Below are positions 47,120 through 51,908 of a DNA stretch of 64,000 bases, in pieces. A program made the translations under genes and the position numbers. Every line of letters begins with the position of its first letter. Position 1 is the first letter of the stretch. Origin of the DNA: Rhodobiaceae bacterium (GTDB lineage Bacteria > Pseudomonadota > Alphaproteobacteria > Parvibaculales > Parvibaculaceae); contig CP030277.1 of NCBI GenBank assembly GCA_003330885.1, positions 1,984,001 to 2,048,000 on the forward strand. The letters run 5' to 3'. Below the pieces are notes generated by a model. It was not told the DNA's origin. It saw nothing but the letters and a program-made list of their open reading frames with translations, and ran no database searches.

Positions 47120-47246
47120 GCGGTCCCTCTCAATCCGGCAACGAAAGAAAACCGTCCGCCCCTTATTTTCTTGAAATCATCATTTTTTTGCGCTCTCATC
47201 CTCTAAGATAGTTTCGGCATCCATAACAACAATCCGGACCGTTCTT

Positions 47247-48260
47247 ATGCACTTGAAGGCAGAGACGCTTGACGATCTGCTGATCGCAACCTTTGAAAGA
47301 TTGCTAAAACGCGGAAAGAGGATCACAGCAACTCGAGGAGAAACCTATGAACTTCAAGGTGTTTTGCTTGAATTGTCTGACCCACGCGCGAGATTAAGCC
47401 GCACAGAGTCAAAGGGGAAGGTCTTTAGTTCGCTAGGCGAACTGCTTTGGTATCTGTCTGGCACAAACTCTTTGGAGTTCATCAAATACTACTTGCCGAA
47501 GTATGAGGATGAGACCGAAGATGGAGCGACAATTTTTGGTGGATATGGACCTAGGCTGATCGACCATCACGGTCATAATCAAATCGAAAATGTTCTGAAG
47601 TTGTTGAAGGGCAATTCAAACTCAAGACGAGCAGTAATACAGGTATTCGATGCCGCCGACATCTCACGAACGCGCAAAGAAATTCCTTGCACATGCACAA
47701 TACAATTTCTACTTCGAGAGGAAAAACTAAACGCTATTGTGCATATGCGGTCCAACGATGCCTACTTTGGATTGCCTCACGATGTGTTCGCTTTCACATT
47801 TCTGCAGGAGATAATTGCGCGAAGCCTTGGCGCAGGACTCGGTACTTATAAACACTTTGTGGGCAGTCTACACCTTTACAGCGACTACGAGTTTCACGCT
47901 CACAGCTACATCGGGGAAGCCTACCAACCAACCACCAAGAAGATGCCCCCGATGCCGCCTGACACACCTTGGCAGTCTATAGAAAAAATTCTCAAAATTG
48001 AGTCCAAGCTGAGAGCTGACGAGCCAGTTCTGCTAAGTCAATTCTCTCTAGATTCATACTGGCTGGACTTGGCCAGAATCCTCCAGTTTTTTGCTGCCTC
48101 GAGGGGCCCTCAAATGGATGAAATCGAAATGGAACGCCTCAAATCGGAACTGGCAGGCTCAGTTTACGAGATGTATCTCAATGGCCGTACACGCACTATC
48201 GGCCCCCCGAACCTATCCGAACCAACTCTGCCGTTACTATTCGATCGAACGAACAAATGA
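47247..48260 (+). CDS. Thymidylate-synthase-fold enzyme, probable dNMP hydroxymethylase-like
   Basis: A 337-residue enzyme of the thymidylate synthase superfamily. The nucleophile is Cys148 in IPCTCTIQF; the phosphate-binding Arg pair is in SRRAVIQVF; the base and sugar loop is RSNDAYFGLPHD; the ribose His and Tyr are in SLHLYSDYEF (209 and 211). At the position of the Asn that reads uracil in ThyA (E. coli N177) this protein has Asp179, as in T4 dCMP hydroxymethylase. It also lacks the usual tryptophan-rich block after GELLWYLSGT. So it may act on dCMP, or transfer hydroxymethyl instead of methyl. It overlaps the AGPT-pyrophosphorylase gene by four bases. Confidence 0.85.
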   Translation: MHLKAETLDDLLIATFERLLKRGKRITATRGETYELQGVLLELSDPRARLSRTESKGKVFSSLGELLWYLSGTNSLEFIKYYLPKYEDETEDGATIFGGYGPRLIDHHGHNQIENVLKLLKGNSNSRRAVIQVFDAADISRTRKEIPCTCTIQFLLREEKLNAIVHMRSNDAYFGLPHDVFAFTFLQEIIARSLGAGLGTYKHFVGSLHLYSDYEFHAHSYIGEAYQPTTKKMPPMPPDTPWQSIEKILKIESKLRADEPVLLSQFSLDSYWLDLARILQFFAASRGPQMDEIEMERLKSELAGSVYEMYLNGRTRTIGPPNLSEPTLPLLFDRTNK

Positions 48261-49195
48261 GACCAATAGATACCGCTGATTTCACCAGCCTAGACAACAA
48301 ACTGAGCAGCTATGAAACAAACCATGGCGTTTTGCCTGGTATCTCACAACAGAACGCCCGACTGGTGTTGCTTGAGCAGCTAATAGAAAGCGTGCGGCGG
48401 GTAAAATTCCTCGAAACTATACAGGCTCGCCCCATTTCGAATACTAGGAAGGATCCTGCGAATCCGGGATTCGATCCCCTCAGAGCTGCATTACTATATG
48501 CACGCGATGGCAACCTAGACGAAGCCTGCTGGCTGGTGTTTCTCGCGATTCACTTTGGTAAGCACCACAAAGATGGCTGGCGGCTCGCGCGCGATGTGTA
48601 TGGAGCATTGCACAACTCCCCCGTATGGACGTGGGATCGGGTGGTTTCACACCGTTCAGAATTCAGAAAATGGATGGTTGAAAATGAAGCGACCCTGCAA
48701 ACAGACGGCGTATCTCGTCGTTTCGGAAACCACAGACGGTATGAAAGCCTTAAAGCAGACTCACCAAAAGGTACCCTTGCGGTAATCGATTCCTATATCG
48801 AATGGATCTCACCTCCACAAACTCATGCATCAAAATTTTCGAATGCGATAGCGTCGGTCGGCCAAGATCCCAAATTGGTCTTCGATGAGCTTTACAATTC
48901 CCTGAAACAGGTCACTCGATTTGGCCGTCTGGCAAAATTCGACTTCCTATGCATGCTGGGAAAACTGAGGCTTGCACCCGTAGAGGCACCATCCGCTTAC
49001 CTAAAAGAAGCGACAGGACCACTACGCGGTGCTCGATTAATTTTCGAAGGAAGTGTGAACTCCAAAACACCACCGGTCGACCTAGAAAGTAAGCTGCACG
49101 AATTGGGAACAAGCCTCGATCTTGGAATGCAGGTTTTGGAAGACGCACTCTGCAACTGGCAAAAAAGTCCGCAGAAGTTCGTGCCATTTCGCTAG
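48257..49195 (+). CDS. Alpha-glutamyl/putrescinyl thymine pyrophosphorylase clade 3 family protein
   Basis: A 312-residue protein that I recognise from its conserved helical blocks: FDPLRAALLYARDGNLDEA, HFGKHHKDGWRLARDVYG (99-116), RRFGNHRRYESL (154-165) and FGRLAKFD (222-229). The family was predicted from phage hypermodification systems; phage relatives of clade 2 phosphorylate 5-hydroxymethyluracil in DNA so that amines or amino acids can be attached. The fold is helical and DNA-glycosylase-like. Overlap with the TS-fold gene by four bases points to a shared pathway: one enzyme makes a hydroxymethyl base, the other activates it. The reaction of clade 3 itself is not established. Confidence 0.75.
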   Translation: MRPIDTADFTSLDNKLSSYETNHGVLPGISQQNARLVLLEQLIESVRRVKFLETIQARPISNTRKDPANPGFDPLRAALLYARDGNLDEACWLVFLAIHFGKHHKDGWRLARDVYGALHNSPVWTWDRVVSHRSEFRKWMVENEATLQTDGVSRRFGNHRRYESLKADSPKGTLAVIDSYIEWISPPQTHASKFSNAIASVGQDPKLVFDELYNSLKQVTRFGRLAKFDFLCMLGKLRLAPVEAPSAYLKEATGPLRGARLIFEGSVNSKTPPVDLESKLHELGTSLDLGMQVLEDALCNWQKSPQKFVPFR

Positions 49196-49205
49196 CAGAC
49201 TAGGA

Positions 49206-50288
49206 TCACATTTCGTTCCATCGGTATCGACGCTTCAACCAATTTAACTGGTTGTGCCTAATTCGCCCCATATGTTGCAACTGGCCAACGATAATTCCCG
49301 GGGAGACAGAACAGGCGTTCGCAAATCTCACTATCTCATATTTGCTAAGCTCGATCTCATGTAGCTTCTCCTGATACCCGTGAGGTATCAAGGTATCGAA
49401 TGAAAACTCATCAGCCTCAGCTTCTTCGGCTTGTGTGACATCTGAGTCGTCCTCAATAAATAGTGCGTTTTTGTCATGAAGGACTAGATGGCCCGCTTCA
49501 TGAAAAAAGGTAAACCAAAATTGATCATCGGAAAGGTACCGCATACTCAATAGGATAAGCGCCTTAGAAGGATTAGTGAACATCGTAGCTCCACTTGCTC
49601 GAGTTCCTTTTGGGGCACGCTGAATCACTACAGCTACACCACACTCTGCGCACAGAGAAACCAACTGGGAAAGAAATATTGAAGGTTGTTTGATTCTAGT
49701 GAGTTTCTTTATTTCACTCAGTGTCGAAGAAAACTTTCCAACATCCCATGGCTTGCATTGGATTTTCTCCGCAAGCTGGTGACCGCGACGCAACCAGGCA
49801 ATAGTTGAGTATTGGTCGACTTCATGTGTTGAAGATGCCCTAAAAGAAACAGCCTTCAGCTGCGTTTCATATTTCTCTTGCCATGCTTCGATACTTCCAG
49901 TCTCGAAGAACTTAAGACACTCCGAAAGTTTATCACCTCCACTCGCGACCCAGCCCATCTTTCGCATTTCATTGATAGGAAGTTGCGACAACCAAGCCCT
50001 GCCATCATCATCCGATATCTTCTTTGCACATTCATCAAGAAGGGCCTCATATCGAGACTGCCGATTGAGCCAATACTGCGAAGTCCCTCCCACGCTTACC
50101 TCTAGCTTCTCCGCGAGATCTTCTGTAATTGGCAATACACCGTCCAACAATTTGATCGCGTCATCGAGGCTCAACCCGACATGGATGGAGAACTCTTGCA
50201 GACCTATCTCACCTTTCGACAAAGCTGCAGAAATAGAAGATCCAGGAATCGAAAACCAAGTGGGATTGAAAGACACTGTCTCAGCCAT
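49206..50288 (-). CDS. HigA-type antitoxin fused to ImmA/IrrE metalloprotease
   Basis: A 360-residue protein. The N-terminal part (about residues 10-85) has a HigA-like HTH (ISAALSKGEIGLQEFSIHVG and TEDLAEKLEVSVGGTSQYW). The C-terminal part is an IrrE-like zinc protease with the active-site HEAGH at 263-267 and acidic residues in AEEAEADEFS for the third ligand. Proteases of this kind cleave repressors or antitoxins after a signal. The gene overlaps the HigB-type gene by eight bases. It may bind the palindrome in the promoter upstream and self-process or destroy a partner under stress, which is inference. Confidence 0.88.
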   Translation of the reverse strand: MAETVSFNPTWFSIPGSSISAALSKGEIGLQEFSIHVGLSLDDAIKLLDGVLPITEDLAEKLEVSVGGTSQYWLNRQSRYEALLDECAKKISDDDGRAWLSQLPINEMRKMGWVASGGDKLSECLKFFETGSIEAWQEKYETQLKAVSFRASSTHEVDQYSTIAWLRRGHQLAEKIQCKPWDVGKFSSTLSEIKKLTRIKQPSIFLSQLVSLCAECGVAVVIQRAPKGTRASGATMFTNPSKALILLSMRYLSDDQFWFTFFHEAGHLVLHDKNALFIEDDSDVTQAEEAEADEFSFDTLIPHGYQEKLHEIELSKYEIVRFANACSVSPGIIVGQLQHMGRIRHNQLNWLKRRYRWNEM

Positions 50289-50592
50289 TTTGAATCTCAA
50301 TCGCTGTAAGTTTAATCCGACCTATCTCGTGTAGTTGCAAATCAGCCCCAGCGTGGTTTGCCATAAAACAAATCGAAATTTGATCATCGACCGACAGCTC
50401 ATAGCTGATTTCACTGCCGCTGTCCTTCTTATTCAGTCCAAGGAAAACCAGGTCCTGCAATGACACTGCCGCTTCGAGGTCAGAAATGCGGTCTTTTAGC
50501 TTCGAGGCACGAACACCGCCGAACTTCCTGATCGCGACGTTCTCATGTTCGCAAAGTCTACGTAGACCCTTGGTCTCAAAAGCCAATTCCAA
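50281..50592 (-). CDS. HigB/RelE-like toxin component
   Basis: A 103-residue protein starting (M)ELAFETKGLRRLCEHENVAI, the typical beginning of HigB-like killer proteins of the RelE/ParE superfamily. The fold would be a small ribonuclease acting on ribosome-bound mRNA. The later part (ISYELSVDDQISICFMANHA) provides the beta-sheet. The start is TTG at 50592, giving the expected N-terminus; a TTG at 50613 would add seven residues. It is first in an operon with the HigA-ImmA fusion. Confidence 0.75.
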   Translation of the reverse strand: MELAFETKGLRRLCEHENVAIRKFGGVRASKLKDRISDLEAAVSLQDLVFLGLNKKDSGSEISYELSVDDQISICFMANHAGADLQLHEIGRIKLTAIEIQNG

Positions 50593-50643
50593 TCGTCCCG
50601 CCCACGTCGACAATCAACGAATCACGTCAAAGTACTGACGCAA

Positions 50644-50672
50644 TTTATAGCGGTAAATTGCCGCTTGTGCCA
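50644..50672 (-). promoter_or_regulatory. Promoter and operator of the toxin-antitoxin operon
   Basis: On the minus strand the -35-like TGGCAC (50672-50667) is followed by exactly 17 bases and the -10-like TATAAA (50649-50644). The spacer holds a 15-17 base palindrome (AGCGGTAAATTGCCGCT on the plus strand, 50649-50665) with one mismatch. A regulator bound there would block RNA polymerase. This is the usual autoregulatory layout of HigBA-like operons. Confidence 0.6.
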
Positions 50673-50739
50673 TGCAGCCTTACCATTGAAGACGGCATAA
50701 TGCATGCGCAGCCCCACACGACATGCACCGAACAAATGA

Positions 50740-50897: not shown

Positions 50898-51300
50898 ACA
50901 ATGTCACTACCTGACTTGTTCGGGTAATCCAGGGTTACAGAATAGAAGCCTGTACACGACGCTCTGGACCACCCGAATAAATCGGGTGGTGACAATAGTG
51001 TTTAGTGGGTTCTGCTGCAGACCATCCAACCAAAAGTGTCATTACCCGGCTTGTCCGGGTAATCCAGGGTGACAGAATAGAAGCCTGTACACGACGCTCC
51101 TGGACCACCCGAATAAATCGGGTGGTGACAATAGTGTTTAGTGGGTTTTGCTGCAGACCATCCAACCAAAAGTGTCATTACCCGGCCCAAGGGTCTGGCT
51201 TCGCCAGCCCGAGGATAAACTCGTCGGGTAATCCAGGGTTACAGAATAGAAGCCCGCGTTTGTCGCTCCTGGACCACCCGAATAAATCGGGTGGTGACAG
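50898..51300. repeat. Tandem array of about three 135-bp units, palindromic repeat family 1
   Basis: Two full units start at 51006 and 51141, exactly 135 bases apart, with the shared run CTGCAGACCATCCAACCAAA and nearly identical following sequence. A truncated unit precedes them at 50898-51005. Each has a left palindrome (TTACCCGGCTTGTCCGGGTAA) and a right one (CACCCGAATAAATCGGGTG). The third copy has an extra hairpin block inserted in its left palindrome (TCTGGCTTCGCCAGCCCGAGG). Another copy is at 51.74-51.87 kb. Confidence 0.85.
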
Positions 51301-51311
51301 CAGAGGCAGGA

Positions 51312-51668
51312 GAACGGTCGAGAAAAAAACTTATCCTCCCCCCTGTCTGAGACCCCATTTAATAGGGCATCTCCCGCCCATGTGAGGGGCGTGTCGACCG
51401 TTCAGTCAGGCGGGTGGGAGTGCGGCTTTCGGGCGGGAGAGTTGACGGCTTCCGTACCGGAGCAACCTGCAAGAGGACCGGAGAGACCCTCCGGGGCGGG
51501 CACTTAAGGCCCGGTCACGACCGGCGGATGAAAGTCCAACGGTACGGCCCGGGAAAAACAGGCGCTTAGCTCGGGATATGATGGATGGCAGCGATTGCAG
51601 CAGCCGCGCGCGGAGTGCCGGAAGGCCTCTAAAAAAGAAACACAGATGAGGCTTTGCGGCATTCCGCG
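51312..51668 (+). ncRNA. Candidate large structured RNA, no known family
   Basis: There is no credible gene here, but many perfect helices are present. GAACGGTCGA (51312-51321) pairs with TCGACCGTTC (51394-51403), 10 bp. CCGTACCG (51452-51459) pairs with CGGTACGG (51540-51547), 8 bp at long range, and encloses hairpins CCGGAG/CTCCGG (51478-51494) and CCGGT/ACCGG (51511-51524). At the end is a 20-bp stem with one G.G mismatch (51609-51629 with 51648-51668) around an A-rich 18-base loop. The strand is arbitrary, since no promoter or terminator was clear. It does not show the conserved cores of RNase P, tmRNA, SRP, 6S, cobalamin, TPP or glycine RNAs. Confidence 0.5.
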
Positions 51669-51741
51669 TCCCTCACGACCTAAACCAGACCTACAGACAT
51701 ACCGTTTATGTGGGCCGCGCAAGCGTGCCTAAACACTCAGT

Positions 51742-51869
51742 GTCATTAACCGGCCCACGGGTCTGGCTTCGCCAGCCCGAGGACAAACTCGTCGGGTAAT
51801 CCAGGGTTACAGAATAGAAGCCTGTACACGACGCTCTGGACCACCCGAATAAATCGGGTGGTGACAGTC
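51742..51869. repeat. Separate copy of palindromic repeat family 1
   Basis: It matches the variant third unit of the array at 51.17-51.30 kb, including the inserted hairpin TCTGGCTTCGCCAGCCCGAGG and the shared stretch GGTTACAGAATAGAAGCCTG. It ends with CACCCGAATAAATCGGGTG. The candidate structured RNA region lies between this copy and the array. Confidence 0.75.
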
Positions 51870-51908
51870 GTTATTTGGAGAAACTCAAGCGCACGAAAAC
51901 ACATGCCC

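Follow-up and report, generated by a model that had tools for sequence, protein, structure and literature searches.

Pairs of an enzyme with the thymidylate synthase (TS) fold and an adjoining protein of the aGPT family are known from the thymine hypermodification modules of phages (phiW-14, ViI and M6). According to phage work attributed to Lee et al. in 2022, a separate kinase reportedly carries out the activation, and the aGPT-type proteins transfer the amino acid. The dCMP hydroxymethylase of phage T4, gp42, is encoded in the phage genome alongside a kinase and glucosyltransferases. MilA, the CMP 5-hydroxymethylase of mildiomycin synthesis (PDB code: 5b6d), sits in an antibiotic cluster; in the pathway it is followed by the N-glycosidase MilB, which acts on hmCMP (PMC4081090). 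Among bacterial defence systems, PD-lambda-2 was experimentally shown to protect against lambda by abortive infection (PMC9519451), and Brig3 is an anti-phage 5hmC glycosylase of the UDG superfamily (PMC13160076). In the available part of the DefensePredictor report (Science 2026, PMC13092281), an aGPT-Pplase system is among the predicted, unvalidated defence systems and another system, with a thymidylate synthase domain, was validated; both domains found in the locus described here are thus flagged as defence, whereas the available text gives neither chemistry nor substrate.

The present locus lies in the window, by which we mean the whole stretch of 64,000 nucleotides that was analysed. It resembles the phage thymine modules in the adjacency of a TS-fold gene and an aGPT gene, the open reading frames of which overlap by four bases (ATGA). 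A sequence-only reading had recognised these two genes, and their place and overlap were confirmed. The pair is, however, half of a compact mobile cassette: a peptidase gene and a gene for a small HigB-like protein lie directly downstream, convergent to it. As these two are as constant as the TS/aGPT pair, the unit consists of four genes in about 3.5 kb, not two, and the term 'cut-down' used for it previously does not fit a cassette that is constant in its make-up. The features, in window positions, are as follows.

47121-50711, no strand: inserted cargo segment holding the cassette, delimited by blastn against congeners.
47247-48260, plus strand: TS-fold enzyme, MilA-like, predicted dCMP 5-hydroxymethylase; 337 aa, nucleophile C148, D179/S169/R127 triple.
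48257-49195, plus strand: aGPT-Pplase clade 3/ADDT protein; 312 aa, all-helical fold, PF18746 and PF18724.
49206-50300, minus strand: XRE-type HTH plus ImmA/IrrE (M78) metallopeptidase, PD-lambda-2_B-like; HEAGH zinc motif, PF06114, PADLOC.
50281-50613, minus strand: small HigB-like (RelE/ParE-type) putative toxin; 110 aa, overlaps the peptidase gene, phrog_3066.
50620-50661, no strand: two inverted repeats found by pattern matches, one at 50620-50645 with 11 pairs, the other formed by GCAATTTA/TAAATTGC at 50640-50661.

We judge the chances to be even that this is a mobile anti-phage cassette in which a hydroxymethylcytosine effector arm is joined to a PD-lambda-2-like toxin/peptidase control arm; that the cassette serves defence of some kind is, taken by itself, likely.

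The TS-fold protein matches PF00303 (E 1.8e-23, over the gathering cut-off in the profile search), in line with the TS active site noticed earlier. It misses the ThyA equivalog cut-offs of NCBIfam (77.8 bits versus 327) and stays below the cut-off of TIGR03284 (68.9 bits; cut-off 108). The host genome has a separate, full-length ThyA elsewhere, which scores 433 bits versus 84 for the cassette protein, so the cassette gene does not encode the housekeeping enzyme; a duplicate thyA was ruled out on the same grounds. When the family profile was compared with the PDB, MilA was the best match (E 4e-71; best ThyA 4e-27), and in single-sequence comparison MilA reached 165 bits versus 70 for true thymidylate synthases and 50 for T4 gp42. 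The 258 residues that align with MilA take in part of the C-terminal extension, and the Cys nucleophile, the Glu, His and Tyr residues and the cytosine-type Asp are shared.

The study of MilA describes three diagnostic positions: Asp186 marks cytosine enzymes and Asn dUMP enzymes, while Ala176 with Lys133 marks ribose enzymes and Ser with Arg deoxyribose enzymes (PMC5175136). Read from the alignment, the Asp186, Ala176 and Lys133 positions of MilA correspond to D179, S169 and R127 in the window protein. It therefore differs from MilA in having the deoxyribose-type S169/R127 in place of the ribose-type A176/K133, and it carries the full triple of the dCMP hydroxymethylases (Asp at ThyA N177, Ser and Arg at ThyA S167/R126), which it has in common with gp42 at a much lower overall similarity. 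In the 87 family rows surveyed, taken from a biased sample of 88 loci (the best-scoring 80 of 203 relatives, plasmid loci and the window), the D179 position is Asp in 86, the sole exception being a frameshifted copy (L020); the S169 position is Ser in 87/87 and the R127 position Arg in 85/87. The host ThyA has Asn where the cassette proteins have D179. C148, R168 and D171 are kept in 87/87 rows, H209 and Y211 in all 86 rows with letters, and the catalytic Cys, Arg, Asp, His, Tyr, Glu and Trp of TS are all conserved across the family. With MilA as the closest solved relative and with the D179/S169/R127 triple, the enzyme is predicted, with good confidence, to make 5-hydroxymethyl-dCMP; a dCMP methylase is less likely. 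The sequence-only reading had pointed to the hydroxymethyl-dUMP step of the phages. Synthesis of this compound was rejected in view of D179 and of the relationship to a CMP 5-hydroxymethylase, Asp and not Asn being present in all 86 intact copies. Unlike the TS-fold enzymes of the phage thymine modules, that of the cassette is of the cytosine type, not the uracil type.

The protein encoded by the second gene matches PF18746, aGPT-Pplase3 (E 5.7e-109; 364 bits versus a gathering cut-off of 25), which bears out the earlier family assignment, and also PF18724, the amino acid:DNA transferase family ADDT (E 6.7e-71, over the gathering cut-off). The earlier remark that no amine-transferring enzyme is present thus needs correction, since the aGPT protein itself belongs with such a family by profile. 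The family name goes back to an old prediction by which aGPT proteins 'activate' the hydroxymethyl group, and the cassette has no activating kinase: it holds no DNA hydroxymethylpyrimidine kinase beside the ADDT-type protein and differs from the phage thymine modules by having neither a hydroxymethyluracil kinase nor tailoring enzymes. The AlphaFold2 model is all-helical and confident (pLDDT 95.8). Foldseek found no significant match for it in the PDB, the top entry being an 8-oxoguanine glycosylase. The top rows of VIA-align are HhH DNA glycosylases and DUF2419, at Z 8-9, which is middling for a helical protein; the DUF2419 row, an enzyme bound to queuosine-5'-monophosphate, gave Z 8.2-8.4. 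In BFVD the model matches phage ADDT proteins best; also among the nearest viral models are 5-hmdU DNA kinases, through their helical domain.

HhH glycosylase activity was considered for this protein. The sequence profile gives it no support (hhalign detected no profile similarity to HhH glycosylases), and the likeness, which is suggestive for a helical protein, is one of fold alone. The invariant residues (Q41, R48, F72, P74, W92, H159, R224, F228, G254-P255, E295-D296, C299-N300-W301 and K303) appear to outline a family-specific active site, whereas residue 275, which would hold the catalytic Asp of the glycosylases as judged by motif only, is Asp in 8/51 and Glu in 13/51 sequences and otherwise Val, Thr, Gln or others. 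Because the family-specific site is invariant while the glycosylase-Asp place varies, we favour transferase-type chemistry over base excision. Pyrophosphorylase/transferase activity of clade 3 on hydroxymethylpyrimidine DNA is predicted, and hydroxymethylcytosine, in DNA or as a nucleotide, is the rather probable substrate.

A further gene, absent from the window copy, is found in 32/88 loci, about a third of the sample of 80 best-scoring relatives out of 203, 7 plasmid loci and the window. The model of its product resembles the family 4 UDG 4zby (VIA Z 14.5; Foldseek E 2.8e-5), and the Asn of its G-[LI]-N-P-S motif is invariant in 27 sequences. Its fold in the model and its active-site Asn motif place it in the UDG superfamily; hhalign gave no link to a narrow UDG set, though the predicted structure is plainly UDG-like. 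The optional gene shares with Brig1/Brig3 the UDG superfamily and hmC chemistry. The difference is that Brig targets hmC made by the phage, whereas the cassette encodes the predicted hydroxymethylase itself.

Whether these enzymes meet their substrate in DNA or as free nucleotide is the point at which a small-molecule version of the cassette has to be weighed. In such a version the TS-fold enzyme would make hm-dCMP, and the aGPT protein (with the UDG-fold protein where present) would act on the free nucleotide to give an antiviral nucleotide, a toxic base or an antimetabolite, in the way that MilA and MilB process CMP. The cassette holds no dNMP kinase, and in particular none for hm-dCMP. To our knowledge, phages that put hmC into their DNA bring an hm-dCMP kinase; incorporation into DNA is therefore not assured, and the lack of such a kinase weighs most heavily against the DNA route. 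By analogy, the parallels with MilA, the closest solved relative, and its successor MilB, together with a DUF2419 enzyme bound to a free nucleotide among the fold matches, keep the small-molecule route alive. The named aGPT/ADDT relatives are, however, phage DNA-modification proteins, DNA is the target of UDG-superfamily enzymes, and the S169/R127/D179 triple indicates dCMP, a DNA precursor. We regard the small-molecule version as possible but doubtful, and consider DNA a somewhat more probable target than free nucleotides.

The peptidase matches PF06114 (E 7.5e-10) and PADLOC PD-Lambda-2_B (E 3.8e-33), and HExxH is kept in every intact copy. Its listed start is TTG, with an in-frame ATG 12 bases downstream, at 50288. 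As the host genome has just two M78 genes, the adjacency of one of them to the TS/aGPT pair is not due to chance. The small gene lies upstream of the peptidase gene, a place conserved across loci. Its product matches phrog_3066, 'toxin of TA system' (E 2.6e-4), as do 9/34 family members; it found no match in Pfam and none to the PD-lambda-2 A component in PADLOC, and its HigB-like identity is weakly suggested by these comparisons. The inverted repeats immediately 5' of the toxin gene are a possible operator for the HTH protein. As in PD-lambda-2, the XRE-peptidase gene comes after the HigB-like gene. The third component of that system is P4-antitoxin-related; none of the four cassette proteins matches the C profiles of PADLOC and the cassette has no further gene, but has a convergent nucleotide/base-modifying operon instead.

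The likeness could also mean a plain toxin-antitoxin system, in which the HigB-like/XRE-peptidase pair would be the sole effector and the TS and aGPT proteins sensors, antidotes or accessories, like the third component of PD-lambda-2. In that system the toxicity resides in the peptidase protein and is neutralised by the HigB-like protein, and defence requires the third part (PMC9519451). The TS catalytic residues of the cassette are, however, fully conserved, for which a mere sensor has no need, and its accessory part comprises two enzymes of one chemistry, or three with the UDG-fold protein. A plain toxin-antitoxin system is accordingly quite improbable.

Two peptide patterns found 203 relatives among 84,980 species genomes. 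The 88 loci studied are the best-scoring 80 of these, 7 plasmid loci and the window, a biased sample that gives a lower bound. TS occurs with the aGPT gene in 87 of these 88, which upholds the earlier expectation that the pair would recur in other genomes; the locus without a recognisable TS is L053. The order TS(+) aGPT(+) peptidase(-) toxin(-) is found in 55/88, and 28 further loci have the same order plus one UDG-fold gene between TS and aGPT; the remaining loci of this best-80-of-203, plasmid and window sample are single variants or run into contig ends. Both control genes are present in 86/88, and the two exceptions (L087 and L073) end at contig ends. In a Sorangium locus (L017) the control pair is flipped with its internal order kept. 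Pairwise distances of the four proteins correlate (r 0.65-0.76, whereas 500 permutations reach 0.18 at most): the four genes co-evolve. Frames are broken in a few copies: TS and aGPT in L020, from a Bradyrhizobium MAG, aGPT in L005, from a Leptospira plasmid, and the peptidase in L021.

The carriers belong to at least ten phyla (Pseudomonadota, Acidobacteriota, Chloroflexota, Actinomycetota, Bacteroidota, Planctomycetota, Myxococcota, Gemmatimonadota, Verrucomicrobiota and Spirochaetota); the phylogeny of the family is a quick tree. In the class of the host 1/385 sampled genomes has the cassette, and in its genus 2/7. Eight aGPT relatives were found in the plasmid collection, and the four-part plan was present in 7/7 regions opened, the toxin gene being unannotated in some and detected by profile. 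A copy over at least 80% of the length, nearly always at an identity of at least 99%, is carried by 226/5,426 complete E. coli genomes (about 4%); it comprises TS, aGPT, XRE/peptidase and an unannotated toxin gene, and occupies 4158-7499 in L153. The cassette is a rare, widely spread, mobile unit. The E. coli copies adjoin a MazG-like gene and a helicase, and in PCN033 also a dGTP triphosphohydrolase-family gene (L153 7631-7894, L154 1446-2678), and they lie between transposase remnants. In Rhizobiaceae, plasmid copies carry one more gene just 5' of TS, with a 261-aa, weakly DUF5677-like product (L007 3073-3858, L009 3046-3831), a possible accessory. In IMG/VR, 26 loci with the cassette lie on contigs of uncertain nature, and one 118-kb contig of the viral collection has two copies about 90 kb apart (L138, L140).

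Several copies on plasmids and some on viral-labelled contigs would suit self-marking, by which TS and aGPT would hypermodify the chromosome or plasmid that carries them and so shield it from nucleases, in the manner of phages; TS and aG/PT-PPlase1 have been reported together in pelagiphages (PMC9599517). The constant partners of the pair are, however, a toxin-like gene and a peptidase, not a nuclease, and the UDG-fold glycosylase in a third of the cassettes would attack such a mark. We hold self-marking to be unlikely. The cassette also departs from the phage thymine modules in these TA-like partners and in its place on bacterial chromosomes and plasmids.

The homology of the window to congeners stops on the left at the uvrB stop (47120) and restarts on the right at 50712-50731 (blastn). 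GC content is 46-50% across 47-51 kb versus about 55% in the flanks, so that the AT-richness noticed before is real, and a foreign origin is supported. Five genomes of the genus have five different cargos downstream of uvrB (window 47120-50712, loci L122-L125). Besides the present cassette, these are an OLD/GajA-like ATPase-TOPRIM protein, Gabija-like and with a strong match to a PADLOC defence model (G143), a SIR2-STAND-TPR protein with a PADLOC match over the SIR2 part (G387), an HD-CE/HATPase protein with a weak PADLOC match (G009), and a group of small genes, among them one for a putative membrane protein (G386). The genus has a hotspot for mostly defence-like cargo downstream of uvrB. Beyond it, at 50900-51871 of the window, an 80-base unit is present four times with the hairpin ACCACCCGAATAAATCGGGTGGT, along with two further direct repeats of 84-87 bases; relatives lie at the same place in congeners, and it looks like a dispersed repeat of the genus.

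The families of the effector pair take their names from phage systems, which would fit a functionless remnant of a phage hypermodification operon. There is, however, no phage gene nearby, and 50,697 phage records gave no match to the cassette; across ten phyla the open frames and catalytic residues are intact, and clear disruption is confined to L020. A remnant is thus extremely improbable. The absence from phage records and the hotspot with its defence-type cargo support the sequence-only reading in so far as it placed a defence module before a phage remnant.

For the anti-phage cassette we propose the following course of events. The MilA-like enzyme would hydroxymethylate dCMP, and the aGPT-Pplase3/ADDT protein would act on 5-hydroxymethylcytosine, most likely by transferring an amino acid or amine to the base, or by processing it in some other way, within replicating DNA. 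The UDG-fold glycosylase, in a third of the cassettes, could excise the hydroxymethylated base. The HigB-like protein and the XRE-ImmA/IrrE peptidase may, as in PD-lambda-2, silence the effector or toxin and react when the cell is infected. Where phage DNA is copied fast, modified or abasic cytosines in it would block replication, and the control pair might arrest the cell. Such infection-triggered poisoning of replicating DNA is a tentative proposal, somewhere between unlikely and possible. Its most novel form, which we hold to be unlikely, is a mark-and-attack immunity in which the host would make 5-hydroxymethyl-dCMP on infection, replicating phage DNA would take up hmC, and the ADDT-type (and UDG-fold) enzymes would convert it to blocking adducts or abasic sites, with the toxin/peptidase pair as trigger. 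We know of no earlier case in which a bacterial defence puts its own target base in place, and this would be the first. In the literature we found no phage assay of this cassette.

Near-identical four-gene copies are present in the 226 complete E. coli genomes, so each step can be tested directly in E. coli. One conserved unit joins toxin/peptidase pairs of the PD-lambda-2 type with base-targeting glycosylases, two lines of defence research. If the proposal is true, the hydroxymethylcytosine chemistry of T-even phages and nucleoside-antibiotic pathways would enter bacterial immunity, and the aGPT-Pplase clade 3 family would gain its first function.
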